A stretch of DNA of 64,000 nucleotides from an uncultured Bacteroidia bacterium (GTDB lineage: Bacteria > Bacteroidota > Bacteroidia > Bacteroidales > UBA932), in NCBI GenBank assembly GCA_902798975.1, contig CADBYT010000012.1:1-64000 (forward strand), given 5' to 3'. Below the pieces are notes generated by a model, which saw only the letters and a program-made list of their open reading frames with translations, did no database searches and was not told where the DNA came from. Positions 8,329 through 50,118 of this stretch are shown here, one piece after another. Made by a program: the position numbers and the translations under genes. How positions within the stretch are numbered: the stretch's first letter is position 1; each line of letters begins with the position of its first letter.

Positions 8329-8335
8329 CCGCCCC

Positions 8336-8413
8336 GTGCGAGAGCGTCGTGGAGGGCGGAGCGGAAATTGGTTTTTCGGGCTACTGCACGTAAAATAATT
8401 TCCGGCCGCCCGC
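8336..8413 (+). repeat. Dispersed repeat, copy 1 (B and C parts)
   Basis: The core GGGCGGAGCGGAAATTGG and the following GCTACTGCACG match the copy at 15319-15392 and, inverted, the copy inside the radical SAM gene. The final 19 bases (8395-8413) are identical to the distal end of the radical SAM copy (14260-14278, inverted), while the A segment between them is missing here. It starts 8 bp after the ALDH stop codon. Confidence 0.8.
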
Positions 8414-8428
8414 GAGGAAAGGGGCGGC
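8405..8428. terminator. GC-rich hairpin between convergent genes
   Basis: GCCGCCC (8405-8411) pairs perfectly with GGGCGGC (8422-8428) around a 10-nt loop. There is no T tract, so termination is only a guess. It partly uses the repeat end and separates the ALDH gene from the convergent aroG-type gene. Confidence 0.4.
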
Positions 8429-12584: not shown

Positions 12585-13883
12585 ATGAACATCACCAGAC
12601 TCGCTGCCGCGGCCGTCACGCTGTTTCTCTGCAGCACCCTTTCCGCCCAGACCGGCTACGAAGAAGCCATCCGCCAGGATCCTGACCGCGCCGCAGGCGT
12701 CCATCATTCCTACGAATACATTCCCTCCGCCGAGACGCCTGCCCCGCGCGGCTACAAGCCCTTCTACCTCAGCCATTACGGCCGCCACGGTTCCCGCCGC
12801 GCCACCAAGAGCTCGGCCGAACATGGCTTCGAATACATGACCGCCGCCCACGAGGCCGGCATCCTGACCCCCCTCGGCGAGGAGCTCTACGAAGCCGTCG
12901 TCCGCATCCACGACGACCATGTCGGCATGGTCGGGGAGCTGACCGCCCGCGGCGGACGCGAGCACCGCGCCATCGCGGACCGGCTCTACGATCGTCATCC
13001 GCGCATCTGGCGGGACAAGTTCCGCACCCAGGTGCACGTCCAGTCCAGCAACATCCCCCGCTGCCTGGTCAGCATGGCCAATTTCACCGCCAGCCTGGAC
13101 GACCGGGCGCCGCAGCTGCTGTTCGACTTCGTCACCGGCGACAAATACCTGGAGCTGGTGGCGCACGACTACTACGATGACGACGCGATTTCCGCCTTCG
13201 GCAGCACCCTGATGCGGGAAATGCTTCCGGCCAGCCTGGATATCTCCCGCTTCATGAAGGCCATTTTCATGGTCGATGAAGGACGCGTGGCCGAACTCGT
13301 CGCCGACCCCCTGAACATCATTTACCAGGTCTTCCTGACCGGCGGCATCCGCCAGTGTACCGAGACGGAAAACGCCGAGATTTTCAGACGCTTCTTCACC
13401 ATCGACGAGCTCATCACCCTGTACCGCTGCTACAACTCCCGGATCTACAACTCGATGGGCAACGCGGCGGAATTCAGCGCCAATCACCTCTGGGCCGCCT
13501 GCGGCCTGCTGCGCGACATCATCGACCGCGCTGACGCCGCCCTCGCAGCCGGCTCCCCCACCGCCGCGGACCTGCGCTTCGGCCACGACTCCGGCATTCT
13601 GCCGCTGGTCGGCCTGATGGACCTCATCGGTCCCGGCGACTGCGTCCCGGCCGCCCGGGCCTATGAAAGCTGGCAGAGCTACCGCCGCGTCCCGATGGCC
13701 TCCAACCTCCAGATGATCTTCTTCCGGAAGAAGGGCGCCGAGCCGCTCGTCAAACTCTATTACAACGAAGAAGAAACGCTCATCCGCGGCCTGGAGCCCG
13801 TCCAGGGCCCCTACTACAGTTGGTCAGCGCTCAAAGCCCACTTCGAGCGCCGCATCGCAAGCTACGAGCATTATTTCGATTAG
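12585..13883 (+). CDS. Secreted histidine-acid phosphatase, MINPP/phytase-like
   Basis: The 432-residue protein begins with a signal peptide cleaved after SAQ (about residue 21). It has the histidine phosphatase catalytic motif YGRHGSR (about 67-73) and the proton-donor site RFGHDSG near residue 325. Length and motifs resemble multiple inositol polyphosphate phosphatases described in Bacteroides, which release phosphate from phytate; substrate assignment is by analogy. The protein is probably periplasmic or outer-membrane-vesicle associated. Its stop overlaps the convergent radical SAM gene by 4 bp, with no terminator between them. Confidence 0.82.
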   Translation: MNITRLAAAAVTLFLCSTLSAQTGYEEAIRQDPDRAAGVHHSYEYIPSAETPAPRGYKPFYLSHYGRHGSRRATKSSAEHGFEYMTAAHEAGILTPLGEELYEAVVRIHDDHVGMVGELTARGGREHRAIADRLYDRHPRIWRDKFRTQVHVQSSNIPRCLVSMANFTASLDDRAPQLLFDFVTGDKYLELVAHDYYDDDAISAFGSTLMREMLPASLDISRFMKAIFMVDEGRVAELVADPLNIIYQVFLTGGIRQCTETENAEIFRRFFTIDELITLYRCYNSRIYNSMGNAAEFSANHLWAACGLLRDIIDRADAALAAGSPTAADLRFGHDSGILPLVGLMDLIGPGDCVPAARAYESWQSYRRVPMASNLQMIFFRKKGAEPLVKLYYNEEETLIRGLEPVQGPYYSWSALKAHFERRIASYEHYFD

Positions 13884-15085
13884 CCCTTGATTTTGGCGTA
13901 ATGGCAATTCAGCACGGAGGCACAGTCTCCGTGCCAGTTGTGCATGCCGTTGCCCAGGCAGTCCCGCCAGACCTTGCAGTCCGCGCAGCGGCCCTTCCGC
14001 GTCCAGCGGCGGTCCCGGAAGGGCGCGAAACGCTCCTCCCAGACCTGGTAGAAATTGTCCTGGTAGATGTTGCCCTGGCTAAAGACGTCCCGGTCGATGT
14101 TGGGGCAGGCACAAATGCGTCCGTCAATCAGCACGGAAGCGATGTTGACGCCCGCGTGGCAGAAATACGGCACGTCCCGGACCTGCCGCTCATACCGGCC
14201 CAGATACCCCTCGCAGCTGAACGTCACCTTCATCGGACGCGATTCGCCGGTCATCCCCTGCGGGCGGCCGGAAATTATGACCGGGTGGCGTTCCCCCCGG
14301 ACCCCCTGAGTCACTTCGTTCCGAGCAGCTACCAGAAAAACCTTTTTCCGCTCCGCCCTCCACGACGCTTCCGCACGACCGGCGAATGACGAATGCCGTT
14401 TGGCGGCGATGAAATCCAGCAGCGCCGTGAATTCCGCATCGGAGAGCTGCATGTCGGGATCGTCCGCCGCACGGCCGATGGGAATGACGGTAAAGATGCG
14501 CCACTGCGGCACACCCAGCTCCTGCAGGCGCGCATACAGCGCTTCCAACTCATTGAAATTCCGCCTGTTGACACAAGTCACCACATCAAAGGCCAGGCGC
14601 GGCCCCTCGGCAGCCGCCAGCGCAATGGCACGCTCCGCCCGCACATAGCTGCCTGGGTGCCCGCGCATCCAGTCGTGCGACTCCGCCAGCCCGTCCAGGC
14701 TGATGGTCAGCGTACCCATCCCGGCGTCCATCAGCCTGCGGTGCATCGCCTCGTCGTAGAACCAGCCGTTGGAAACCATCCCCCAGCTGACGCCCCGGCT
14801 GCGCAACGCCCGGCCGACCTCCGTGATGTCGGGACGCAGCAGCGGTTCGCCGCCCGTCAGCACGACGGTAAACGGCTTCGCGCGCCCCTCCGCGGGAATG
14901 GTGTCGAAAGCCCGCAGGAAGTCCTCCAGCGGCATATCCACGTCCCGGCTCGCCGCAAAACAATCACTGCCGCAATGGCGGCAGTGAAGGTTGCAGCGGG
15001 TCGTGCACTCCCAGAAAAGGTAATTGAGTTCGTGCACCGCCGTCTCGTTGGCGCGGAAAGCGCGATGGAGCAGGCGGCCGATCAT
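13880..15085 (-). CDS. Radical SAM/SPASM enzyme of an rSAM/lipoprotein system, carrying an in-frame repeat insert
   Basis: The 401-residue protein has the radical SAM motif C31-x3-C35-x2-C38, then LTGGEPLLRP and TISLDG. A C-terminal SPASM-type cysteine cluster (ACPNID, CADCKVWRDC, DCASVLNC) would bind auxiliary Fe-S clusters. It resembles the family annotated as the rSAM/lipoprotein system (TIGR04133, from memory), whose reaction is unknown. Residues about 229-283 are an insert rich in Arg, Ala and Gly, encoded by a dispersed repeat copy (14260-14391); the conserved KVTFSCEGYLG resumes right after it. The gene overlaps the lipoprotein gene upstream by 4 bp, so the two are cotranscribed. Confidence 0.85.
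   Translation of the reverse strand: MIGRLLHRAFRANETAVHELNYLFWECTTRCNLHCRHCGSDCFAASRDVDMPLEDFLRAFDTIPAEGRAKPFTVVLTGGEPLLRPDITEVGRALRSRGVSWGMVSNGWFYDEAMHRRLMDAGMGTLTISLDGLAESHDWMRGHPGSYVRAERAIALAAAEGPRLAFDVVTCVNRRNFNELEALYARLQELGVPQWRIFTVIPIGRAADDPDMQLSDAEFTALLDFIAAKRHSSFAGRAEASWRAERKKVFLVAARNEVTQGVRGERHPVIISGRPQGMTGESRPMKVTFSCEGYLGRYERQVRDVPYFCHAGVNIASVLIDGRICACPNIDRDVFSQGNIYQDNFYQVWEERFAPFRDRRWTRKGRCADCKVWRDCLGNGMHNWHGDCASVLNCHYAKIKG
14260..14391 (-). repeat. Dispersed repeat, copy 2, in frame inside the radical SAM gene (B-A-C)
   Basis: Read on the minus strand, the first part (14391 to about 14325) matches copies at 15319 and 8336. The middle part (14324 to 14276) matches 47764-47811 almost base for base. 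The end (14278-14260) is identical to 8395-8413. It also contains the inverted repeat CCGGTCAT/ATGACCGG (14247-14254 and 14277-14284). The whole stretch is translated without a stop as about 45-55 extra residues. Confidence 0.8.
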
Positions 15086-15279
15086 TCAGCGACGATCTGC
15101 TCCGTCTCCTCCGCGGCGCGTTCTTCTTCCGCGACGGACTCCTCGACAAGCTCCATTTCATTATCCAGCTCCAGGACATCATAGTCCGGTCCCGGTGGCG
15201 TGCCGTAGCAGGCCTGGAAGACAAACAGCGCCGTCGTGAGCGATGCGCCCTTCAGCGCGCGGTGGATCCACTTTCTCAT
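15082..15279 (-). CDS. Small acidic lipoprotein paired with the radical SAM enzyme
   Basis: This 65-residue protein has a basic N-terminus (MRKWIHR), a hydrophobic segment and a lipobox VFQAC with lipid-anchor Cys24. The remaining 41 residues contain CYGTPPGPDYD and an almost uniformly acidic tail dominated by Glu. It matches the general idea of the lipoprotein partner in rSAM/lipoprotein systems, though I recall those being longer. The 4-bp overlap with the radical SAM gene makes it the likeliest substrate or partner; that is inference. The start is set by the signal peptide and by the -7 box TATATTTG at 15300-15307. Confidence 0.72.
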   Translation of the reverse strand: MRKWIHRALKGASLTTALFVFQACYGTPPGPDYDVLELDNEMELVEESVAEEERAAEETEQIVAE

Positions 15280-15299
15280 ATCGCAAACAGATCTTTCCG

Positions 15300-15307
15300 C
15301 AAATATA
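15300..15307 (-). promoter_or_regulatory. -7 box of the lipoprotein/radical SAM operon
   Basis: TATATTTG on the minus strand fits TAnnTTTG and lies 20 bp upstream of the lipoprotein ATG. Repeat copy 3 begins about 12 bp further upstream. Confidence 0.5.
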
Positions 15308-15318
15308 AACATTTTTTC

Positions 15319-15392
15319 GTCATTCTCCGGTCGTGCGGCAGCGTCGTGAAGGGCGGAGCGGAAATTGGTTTTCCAAGCTGCTGCACGGAAAA
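15319..15392 (+). repeat. Dispersed repeat, copy 3 (B part)
   Basis: Starting CGTCATTCTCCGGTCGTGCG, it matches the inverted radical SAM copy with roughly one difference in seven over 70 bases, and shares GGGCGGAGCGGAAATTGG with the 8336 copy. It fills the gap between the GH3 stop (15398, minus strand) and the lipoprotein promoter. Confidence 0.8.
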
Positions 15393-15397
15393 TCAAT

Positions 15398-17731
15398 CTA
15401 CAACAGTTTCTGAATTGGCTGCTGCGGGGCCAGCACGTTGTGCGCCGGCCAGGACTTCGCCTCGGTGAGCGTGAAGGGTGCAGTCGCGCGCAGATCGCGG
15501 GAGCTGGCGCCAAATGCGAGGGTGTACTCGCCGGAAGCAGTCTCCCAGGCGGACGCGGCCTCGTTGAAGGAAGCCAGGCCGTAGCCGTCCACCTTCAGGG
15601 TCACCACCTCGCTCTCACCCGGCTTCAGCTCGCGCGTCTTGGCGTAAGCCTTGAGTTCGCGGACCGGCTTGTCCAGGCCGCCGGCGGGGGCGCTCACGTA
15701 GAGCTGCACCACTTCCTTGCCGGCCACGGTGCCGATATTGCTCACCTTGATGCTGGCCTCGAAGCCGTCGCCCGCAGCCTTCACAGAAGGCTCGGTATAG
15801 GCGAAGCTCGTATAGCTCAGGCCATAACCGAAGGGATAGGAAACCTCCATGTTCTTCTTGTCGAACCAGCGGTAACCCACATAGATATCCTCGGCGTAGA
15901 CCGTACGGTCCACATCCTTCTGGCCGATGTCCTCGCGGCGGTTGATGAAGTAAATGCCTGCATCCGCGTCAATCGGGAAGTTGGAAGAGGAACCGGCGTC
16001 GGTCAGGCGCACCGGGAAAGTCATCGGAAGGCGTCCGGAAGGGCTCTGCTTGCCCGTCAAGATGTCGGTCACGGAGTTGCCGCCCTCCTGTCCGGCCTGC
16101 CAGGCCAGCAGGACGGCGTCGGGAATGTTCTTCCAGGAAGCGGTCTCGATTACGCCGCCGATATTCAGCACCACAACGACCTTCTTTCCTGCCTTGTGGA
16201 AGGCGGTCGTCACGTCCTGCAGGAGCTTGCGCTCCTTGGCGGAGAGGGAGAAGTCGGCAGCGCTGCGGTCGAAGAATTCGCCGGAATTGCGGCCGAAGGT
16301 GATGATGGCCACGTCATTGGCCCGGGCGGAAGCGTTCAGCTCAGCCGCAGACGGAATCAGCTCGGACGGGCGCGGGGTCGGATAGAAGGCGGACGTGCCG
16401 TCGTTCGGGAGCGAAGCCTGGAAGGCCGCCGCCTCGTCGGCGATGTGCTTCAGGTATATGTCCTTCTTGCTGTCGTCCACCGTAAAGCCGGCGTTCTTCA
16501 GACCGTCCAGCAGGGACACGGTGTAGGCGCGGTTCACGTTGCCGGAACCGGTGCCGCCCGCGACAAAATCATAGGAGGTGCAGCCGAACACGGCCACCTT
16601 GTTCACGTTCTTGAGCGGAAGCACACCCTTGTTCTCCAGCAGGACCATGCCCTCGAGCGCGCTCTGGCGCGTGACGGCGGCATGGGCCGTGAGGTCGGGT
16701 TCATTGCTGTAGGCATAGCCCTTCATCTTGGGGCTGCGGAGCACGAGTTCGAGGCAGCGGCGCACGCAGACGTCCAACTCGGCCTCGCTGAGCGTGCCGT
16801 TCTGGATGGCTGCCATGATCTGGTCGTACTGCAGGTTGGTGCCCGGCTGGAGCATGTCGTTGCCGGCGCGAATCTGGGCCGCACCGTCGTCACCGCCGTA
16901 CCAGTCGGTCATTACGGTGCCCTTGTAGCCCCACTCGTCGCGCAGGATGGTGGTCACGAGATCGCGGCTCTGGGAAGTATAGGTGCCGTTGATCTTGTTG
17001 TAAGAGGTCATGATCGTCCAGGGATCAGCTTCCTTGACCGTGATTTCGAAGCCCTTAAGGTAGATCTCACGCTGGGCGCGCTGGCTGATGACGGCGTCGT
17101 TGCCCGTGCGGTTGGTCTCCTGGTTGTTGTAGGCGAAGTGCTTGATGGAGGTGCCCACGTCATTCTTCTGAACACCGCGCACGTAAGCGGCAGCCGTCTT
17201 GCCGGCCACCACGGGATCTTCGGAATAATACTCGAAGTTACGTCCGTTCAGCGGGTTGCGGTGGATGTTCAGGGCCGGAGCCAGGTAGACGTCGGCGCCG
17301 TACTCATGCACCTCCTCGCCCATCGCGGTGCCCACCTGCTCGACGAGTTCCTGATTCCAGGTGGAGGCCAGCAGGGTCCCGATCGGGAAATGGGTGCAGT
17401 AGTAGGTGCGGTCATCCCCTTCCCGGATCGGGTCGATACGCAGGCCGGCGGGGCCGTCCGCCAGGACGATGGCCGGGATGCCGAGGCGCTCGACGGGATA
17501 GGTCGTGCCGGCGGCGCCGGGCACGATGTTCTTGGTGGCGCCGATCGTCGCGGCCACGCCTTCGTCAGTGCCGATACCGCTCATGCCGGTACCGATCACG
17601 AAATGAACCTTCTCCTCGAGCGTCATCGCTTTGAGGACTTTGTCAATGGAAGCCTTCCCCAACTGCGGATCGCCGCCCGAACAGGCGGCGAAGAGCAGCA
17701 CGGAGGAAGCAAGGATCAATGCTTTCTTCAT
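15398..17731 (-). CDS. Glycoside hydrolase family 3 beta-glucosidase-type lipoprotein
   Basis: The 777-residue protein starts with a lipoprotein signal, LLFAACSGG, with Cys17 as anchor, so it probably sits in the periplasm or on the outer membrane. The GH3 barrel follows, with LADGPAGLR, KHFAYNNQETNR and the nucleophile Asp276 in VMTDWYGG. The alpha/beta sandwich domain comes next (VAVFGCTSYDFVAGGTGSGNVN), then a C-terminal fibronectin-III-like domain with SYPFGYGLSYTSFAY. Family members cleave terminal beta-glucosyl or beta-xylosyl residues; the exact sugar is not readable. It is the second gene after a paralog ending 8 bp upstream, and both are transcribed leftwards. Confidence 0.92.
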   Translation of the reverse strand: MKKALILASSVLLFAACSGGDPQLGKASIDKVLKAMTLEEKVHFVIGTGMSGIGTDEGVAATIGATKNIVPGAAGTTYPVERLGIPAIVLADGPAGLRIDPIREGDDRTYYCTHFPIGTLLASTWNQELVEQVGTAMGEEVHEYGADVYLAPALNIHRNPLNGRNFEYYSEDPVVAGKTAAAYVRGVQKNDVGTSIKHFAYNNQETNRTGNDAVISQRAQREIYLKGFEITVKEADPWTIMTSYNKINGTYTSQSRDLVTTILRDEWGYKGTVMTDWYGGDDGAAQIRAGNDMLQPGTNLQYDQIMAAIQNGTLSEAELDVCVRRCLELVLRSPKMKGYAYSNEPDLTAHAAVTRQSALEGMVLLENKGVLPLKNVNKVAVFGCTSYDFVAGGTGSGNVNRAYTVSLLDGLKNAGFTVDDSKKDIYLKHIADEAAAFQASLPNDGTSAFYPTPRPSELIPSAAELNASARANDVAIITFGRNSGEFFDRSAADFSLSAKERKLLQDVTTAFHKAGKKVVVVLNIGGVIETASWKNIPDAVLLAWQAGQEGGNSVTDILTGKQSPSGRLPMTFPVRLTDAGSSSNFPIDADAGIYFINRREDIGQKDVDRTVYAEDIYVGYRWFDKKNMEVSYPFGYGLSYTSFAYTEPSVKAAGDGFEASIKVSNIGTVAGKEVVQLYVSAPAGGLDKPVRELKAYAKTRELKPGESEVVTLKVDGYGLASFNEAASAWETASGEYTLAFGASSRDLRATAPFTLTEAKSWPAHNVLAPQQPIQKLL

Positions 17732-24405: not shown

Positions 24406-24477
24406 CGTGCTGTCAGTGCCCCATGATTGAGGGGGCGAACCCCCTCAAACTCCCCTGCGTCGCTGACGCTCCGAACC
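24399..24477 (+). repeat. Stop-codon hairpin plus dispersed repeat core (A-like)
   Basis: GCACTGAC (24399-24406, containing the TGA of the first nucleoside hydrolase) pairs with GTCAGTGC (24412-24419). A second perfect hairpin, TTGAGGGGG/CCCCCTCAA with loop CGAA, lies at 24427-24448. The following CCCCTGCGTCGCT...CGCTCCGAA (24452-24474) matches the repeat core at 47790-47812. The region may also act as a terminator or processing site between the paralogs. Confidence 0.65.

Positions 24478-47712: not shown

Positions 47713-50118
<2,406 letters not shown>

Follow-up and report, generated by a model that had tools for sequence, protein, structure and literature searches.

The 64-kb window, by which we mean the whole stretch of DNA analysed, carries a gene for a radical SAM/SPASM protein (Table 1), which matched the NCBIfam model TIGR04133 with 443.4 bits (cut-off 425) in two stretches, the best covering residues 5-232. 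Pfam placed the Radical_SAM domain at residues 26-185 and SPASM at 309-371, and the ortholog alignment located an insert between them, at about residues 233-281. An earlier note on this DNA had proposed that a dispersed repeat keeps the reading frame here and adds about 45-55 residues between the barrel and SPASM; the alignment bears this out with 49. Twelve ortholog loci were taken and 11 aligned (L036 had no usable ORF), and all 11 lacked the segment, as the note had suggested might be the case for residues 229-283. The ortholog of genome G036, 81% identical ahead of the insert, has none. When the protein was searched in relatives, some match was found in 65 of 81 genomes, many of them paralogs, and the better matches broke at about 230/282. 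The insert is somewhat wider than the 14260-14391 given in the note. An AlphaFold model of the protein alone (pLDDT 44) was too poor for use.

Table 1. Positions of the radical SAM gene, of the parts and copies of the repeat, and of the RAYT-like genes. Numbers alone refer to the window.
Feature	Position	Strand	Basis or context
Radical SAM/SPASM protein gene, TIGR04133 family, 401 aa, insert host	13880..15085	-	NCBIfam and Pfam profiles
Composite insert, in frame, about 147 nt / 49 residues	14242..14391	-	ortholog alignment
5' arm of CGTC-type REP, CGTC + ATTCGCCGG	14379..14391	-	exact match
3' arm of this REP (coding strand: CCGGCGAAT)	14242..14250	-	outermost helix of predicted fold
Left arm of core hairpin (part C of the earlier note), GCGGGCGGCCGGAAATTAT	14260..14278	+	BLAST, copy comparison
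Module A nested in core	14277..14323	+	94% to A consensus; same core position in other full long copies
Right arm of core hairpin (part B of the earlier note)	14335..14378	+	BLAST, copy comparison
Second core copy, left arm missing, CGTC-REP arm (one mismatch)	15318..15390	-	between two tandem genes
Third core copy, own outer stem AGCCGCCCC/GGGGCGGCT	8335..8422	-	between 3' ends of convergent genes
Module A alone, between direct repeats of neighbouring sequence (by eye)	47764..47811	+	BLAST
HemW, in-frame core copy	C10:50116		profile search
Family-2 glycosyltransferase (GT2), in-frame core copy	C9:13642		profile search
MetH, in-frame core copies	C13:9229, 10075, 10597		profile search
ATP synthase gamma (AtpG), in-frame core copies	C13:55989, 56472		profile search
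TrpC, in-frame core copy	C15:27824		profile search
ManA-like protein, in-frame core copy	C22:9218		profile search
RimO, in-frame core copy	C24:11387		profile search
RAYT-like Y1 transposase gene	L032:1243-2292		GATGCGACCCCC...GGGGGTCGCATC hairpins on both sides
RAYT-like Y1 transposase gene	L031:889-1755	-	then two GTGTCC/GGACAC hairpins

The segment is a nested palindromic repeat, in which a CGTC-type REP forms the outer stem, a hairpin core of about 85 bp occupies the loop of that REP, and a G/C-rich module, A, sits in the core. The three parts that the note had distinguished are thus real, but they are modules of one nested element and not a mosaic specific to this gene. The 11-nt outer stem of this copy, ATTCGCCGGTC/GACCGGCGAAT, includes the 3' arm of the REP. 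Self-BLAST of the window with 14240-14410 recovered the two further copies of B reported at 15319 and 8336, both on the opposite strand (15316-15364, 49 nt, 94%, E 6e-16; 8343-8377, 35 nt, 94%, E 6e-10), the 19 identical bases of C at 8395 (8395-8413, E 3e-5) and the copy of A at 47764 (47774-47811, 38 nt, 89%, E 5e-7). The partial copy of A claimed at 24452 was not confirmed: the search gave no match there at E ≤ 10, and inspection by eye shows an A-type hairpin that has diverged. Rfam over window positions 14200-15450 gave 0 matches at E ≤ 1.

We then turned to the whole genome, a MAG of 2,087,122 bases (2.09 Mb) in 39 contigs that is 71% complete. A 137-bp query gave 62 matches at E ≤ 10 (the best 40 of 63 candidates were scored), and apart from the segment itself the top eight ranged from E 3e-33 to 2e-17; at the same cut-off a 108-nt short consensus gave 47 matches and module A 41. 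The two outcomes that the note had set against its own proposal, a segment common to distant orthologs and a genome lacking further copies, were therefore not seen. Merged by place, the matches amount to 45 core copies and 20 copies of A alone; of the core copies, 36 are short, and 9, including a partial one, are long and contain A. The order C-A-B recurs in eight further copies, one of them partial, and in all eight full long copies it is the same portion of the core that gives way to A, so that these look like one composite lineage. By eye, three of the A-only copies (C12:47764, C18:13563 and C4:29885; L116, L113, L112) have short flanking direct repeats, unlike the core. Two A copies in tandem adjoin a core copy elsewhere (L012/L021, C8:4298-4440), and a core subfamily with a short 3' end follows GTCTTCCAGA (L129, L133 and L140; C4:63133, C4:184426 and L140 near 563, minus).

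The bare REP is also abundant. The pattern CATTCGCCGG-n-CCGGCGAAT had 60 exact matches in the genome, with loops of 4-6 nt, compared with 0 for the reversed control pattern, and a CGTC tag (once TGTC) stood ahead of every bare copy in 20 loci. CGTC-type REPs are described as high-copy repeats with a CGTC tag, an 8-9 bp stem starting AT and a loop of 4-5 nt (PMC3733652); CGTC-ATTCGCCGG-CTTGA-CCGGCGAAT and its near variants, present in high copy, belong to this type, some loops being one base over the published length. In the radical SAM gene the REP loop is occupied by the core. Bare CGTC-REPs also occur in frame at L257 and L258: one separates regions 2 and 4 of a sigma-70-family protein, the other lies within the C-terminal domain of a formyltransferase.

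The core forms an imperfect hairpin some 85 bp long. Across 48 of the 65 distinct cores collected from this genome and others, its 19 stem positions are paired in 97.9% of cells. Two-sided changes occurred in 43 stem cells, compared with 7.7 ± 2.3 in shuffles. The 87-nt consensus core folds at -31.7 kcal/mol (z -4.1), and the whole insert segment of the radical SAM gene at -65.2 kcal/mol (z -1.7), a modest excess since 11 of 200 shuffles did equally well. We discarded the idea that evolution had shaped the core to keep every frame open: one version of the consensus was open in five of six frames, but about 30% of dinucleotide shuffles match that. Covariation of this kind is what one would look for if the hairpins were selected functional elements, such as RNA attenuators, terminators or useful protein loops, and not selfish DNA. 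It need not mean selection, since template switching can itself write compensatory changes (PMC8794818).

The outer stem varies from copy to copy. The best complementarity between the flanks averaged 8.0 nt, compared with 5.18 ± 0.14 when flanks were exchanged among copies; of 95 copies, 86 were used, as five had no right anchor and four no left anchor. That every outer stem was a pre-existing REP or target is ruled out by the stem GGCTTGCC/GGCAAGCC, as GGCTTGCC...GGCAAGCC never occurs alone, without the core. Some outer stems correspond to REPs that are also found on their own, and others resemble copies of the flank of the kind that template switching would make. In L183, the TrpC insert has as its right arm AACGGGGCC, which inverts the native sequence GGCCCCGTT upstream (left) of it; the empty TrpC ortholog L216 lacks this arm. 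Such copy-specific stems, together with differences in orientation, would fit a purely replicative origin, in which replication errors (template switching plus gene conversion) duplicate, lengthen, homogenise and invert existing hairpins and no mobile element with an enzyme is involved; template switching is reported to homogenise arms and invert spacers (PMC8604942). It poorly explains how similar cores came to lie at 45 places in one genome and in at least 12 MAGs, or how the radical SAM gene gained a whole 147-nt unit. We thus regard this origin as unlikely, and template switching as a process that probably acts after insertion, not instead of it.

Reading frames that span the copies, combined with profile searches for protein families, identified eleven core copies in frame in eight conserved genes: besides the radical SAM gene, those of HemW, GT2, MetH (three copies), AtpG (two), TrpC, a ManA-like protein and RimO (Table 1). 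The repeat in frame within a gene that the note had described thus has counterparts in seven other conserved genes, and the element behaves as RPEs do, being a palindromic repeat that several unrelated protein genes carry in frame. For TrpC (via the L163 ortholog), HemW and RimO, homologs of known structure align on either side of the insert and not across it; the corresponding alignment of MetH is gapped across the first insert, stops within the second and restarts only past the third. The ManA-like proteins of G008 and G015 (82% identical) match up to residues 226-229 and restart at 258. The matches in G009, G012, G013, G021 and G024 are single and gapped across the site, some of them without net shortening, and these genomes may carry other sequence there. 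Less certain copies were kept outside the eleven: one at C24:29594 in an MBOAT protein, whose DltB-like match starts directly after the insert, one at C4:36610 with no family and one at C4:63133 upstream of a Porin_10 match, as well as A-only copies in KsgA, near the C-terminus of LplA and in a protein with a YfhO match below the cut-off.

Since ORF scans can find in-frame cases only, we added a classifier that is blind to the element: a three-periodic Markov model with the window as its training set, which reads only the flanks and placed 120 of 125 fragments of training genes correctly. Applied to 96 copies (45 from this genome and 51 from others), it found coding flanks on the same strand for 19, on opposite strands for 17, on one side for 44 and on neither for 14; two copies lay at edges. 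Eleven of the 19 same-strand copies were in frame and open, eight in this genome (the radical SAM gene, GT2, the three MetH copies, one AtpG copy, the ManA-like protein and RimO) and three elsewhere (L159 and two copies in L167). The remaining eight lay between tandem genes, five with different Pfam families on either side and three (C12:15318, L169, L171) with a family on one side and none on the other. No frame-breaking insertion was thus found among the 19 copies with same-strand coding flanks. The classifier is insensitive, as at least ten known intragenic copies, among them three of this genome (HemW, TrpC and the second AtpG copy) and several from elsewhere, fell among those with one coding side, and a broken gene could therefore hide in that class.

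These data bear on whether the inserts might be skipped, by mRNA splicing or ribosome bypass, to give proteins of normal length. The strong consensus hairpin within reading frames could be taken to favour skipping, and hairpin elements that mitochondrial ribosomes bypass are known. Skipping would, however, lift the pressure on frame and stop codons, whereas the 11 copies assigned to gene interiors are without exception open and in frame, and the TrpC orthologs keep the frame whichever way the element points; we consider skipping very unlikely.

Between genes, the element prefers 3' ends. The opposite-strand pairs comprised 17 convergent and 0 divergent ones, and when one flank was coding (44 copies, intragenic ones included), 34 copies faced the 3' end of the gene and 10 a 5' end. 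This preference, like the covariation, speaks for a function of the hairpins, as do the AtpG and TrpC loops that are occupied again and again. Such recurrence would also arise where few loops tolerate insertion, the host genes are unrelated, and different frames and orientations give unrelated peptides at the same site. Moreover, presence is patchy: by DNA similarity, 5 of 81 genomes carried the element, this one included and all of one genus (at most the best 11 candidates per genome). Altogether, a selected function appears to us improbable, less likely even than the replicative origin discussed above.

A scan of contigs with a degenerate pattern found the core in at least 50 stretches from at least 12 named MAGs titled Bacteroidia or Bacteroidales, whose isolate names point mostly to ruminant guts. 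Module A, searched as a pattern with one mismatch, occurred in 2 of 81 genomes, this one and G008, and an exact pattern found no copies in viral contigs. TrpC is filled at one site in five genomes, with the element forward in this genome, L163 and L170 and reversed in L158 and L183, and it remains in frame in either orientation; identity to the L163 protein is 77% for L158, 80% for L170 and 73% for L183. An AlphaFold model of TrpC made with four sequences (pLDDT 38) was too poor for use. Other sites of this genome are filled elsewhere as well, in AtpG (L167 twice, L162), MetH (L159) and HemW (L140), and further in-frame cases were met in diaminopimelate epimerase (L154, L179) and in an ABC-F-like protein with two ABC domains (L157). 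As the source is a fragmented MAG, one might suspect that misjoins driven by the repeat during assembly or binning put the element into genes. The same TrpC, AtpG (L167) and MetH sites are filled in separate MAGs, and none of the 11 copies classified as intragenic interrupts the frame, which leaves such an artefact with next to no weight.

In other species of the genus, the same two AtpG loops are filled by other palindrome-like peptides (by eye; 28 of 30 loci had an ORF; L187-L211), for instance MADQVGGDVSVMPG and MADQVGHDVSVMPG in L190 and SFRPERSGVEESP in L195. In this genus a few housekeeping loops, namely AtpG loops 1 and 2, TrpC before the 'SESGI' strand, the MetH linkers and HemW, might be standing landing sites where different palindromic elements repeatedly settle, replace one another and flip, always in frame. 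We put this forward tentatively, as a possibility that we would not yet favour.

The genome has two Y1_Tnp (RAYT-like) genes, which scored 23.5 and 23.3 bits (cut-off 23), 22.8 and 21.9 in a second profile run, and 38 and 40 bits against NF047646, below its cut-off of 80. Each has a long composite copy on one side within about 200 bp, an arrangement whose chance for both genes we estimate, roughly and post hoc, at about 5e-5. The hairpins that border each gene (Table 1) differ between the two and are not the core. No GT[AG]G foot is conserved at the core in the copies inspected (by eye), which sets it apart from classical REPs and REPINs. Viewed as a MITE, the element has outer stems that vary by copy, no target duplication evident around the radical SAM insert in the comparison with G036, and no copy with cargo in the window and L135-L184, where a search for unpaired arms returned 17 entries that, by eye, resemble mutated or truncated elements.

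Taken together, these results make it probable that the segment is a selfish, translated, non-autonomous nested palindromic repeat of the Rickettsia RPE and intragenic REP type, which spreads as a hairpin. The unit would be the imperfect hairpin core with module A as an optional second hairpin in one arm, often seated in the loop of a further stem that in the radical SAM gene is the CGTC-type REP. The core may move as single-stranded hairpin DNA through a Y1/HUH (RAYT-like) nuclease acting in trans. Copies that have a coding flank mostly face gene 3' ends, and those that land within genes would survive if the frame is kept, no stop is introduced and the site is a loop or a domain linker. A surviving insert would presumably be translated as an extra loop, and template switching during replication could later extend the stems and flip the interior. 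As the insert keeps the reading frame, the host proteins probably gain an extra loop from parasitic DNA.

The closest known system in behaviour is the RPE, a palindromic repeat some 150 bp long that occurs in frame within numerous unrelated genes (PMC10969869). The likeness drawn here is one of behaviour. RPEs belong to another phylum, and the nested modules and the two orientations at one site in different genomes distinguish the present element. With CGTC-tagged repeats, which have been listed from Bacteroidetes among other phyla, the outer palindrome shares the tag, a 9-bp stem with an initial AT and a short loop, but a separate hairpin of about 85 bp lies here in the REP loop. Di Nocera et al. 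2013 described intragenic REPs, and REPs within palindromes, and their section on intragenic REPs names no Bacteroidetes species (PMC3733652). REPtrons of RAYT/TnpAREP subclasses 2.4 and 2.6 are likewise present in Bacteroidetes. In subclass 2.4, abundant in Cyanobacteria and Bacteroidetes, REPs lie within tnpAREP genes without disrupting the frame, and subclass 2.6 genes have atypical hairpins alongside (PMC6006769); here the inserts are in housekeeping genes, and the core differs from the hairpins bordering either RAYT-like gene. The BrickBuilt MITE of Porphyromonas gingivalis is also a small non-autonomous dispersed repeat of Bacteroidota, but is reported as strictly intergenic (PMC10969869). 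In Nematomorpha mitochondrial genes, inverted repeats form translated parts of functional proteins (PMC6649704), and both of their arms specify conserved protein sequence, whereas here the added stretches are lacking in orthologs. The statement of the earlier note that no equivalent was known in Bacteroidota was thus too broad with regard to CGTC repeats and in-frame tnpAREP REPs, and held for housekeeping genes, for which we found no report of such in-frame repeats within open-access PubMed Central. As far as these searches reach, an in-frame, probably translated element in Bacteroidota housekeeping genes is new.

Selfish DNA in coding genes is best known from Rickettsia and REP-rich bacteria, and here it is met in Bacteroidia MAGs. 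The hosts are core enzymes (ATP synthase gamma, methionine synthase, TrpC, RimO), and related genomes hold empty, filled and flipped versions of the same sites, a natural experiment on which loops tolerate insertion, on how hairpin DNA moves and inverts and on how proteins gain new loops. For annotators, loop insertions in such MAGs may be mobile DNA and not adaptive domains. If the idea of standing landing sites is true, orthologs that are 73-80% identical carry unrelated loop peptides, and hairpins landing in hairpins would be an engine, built from mobile DNA, of protein-loop diversification in gut bacteria.
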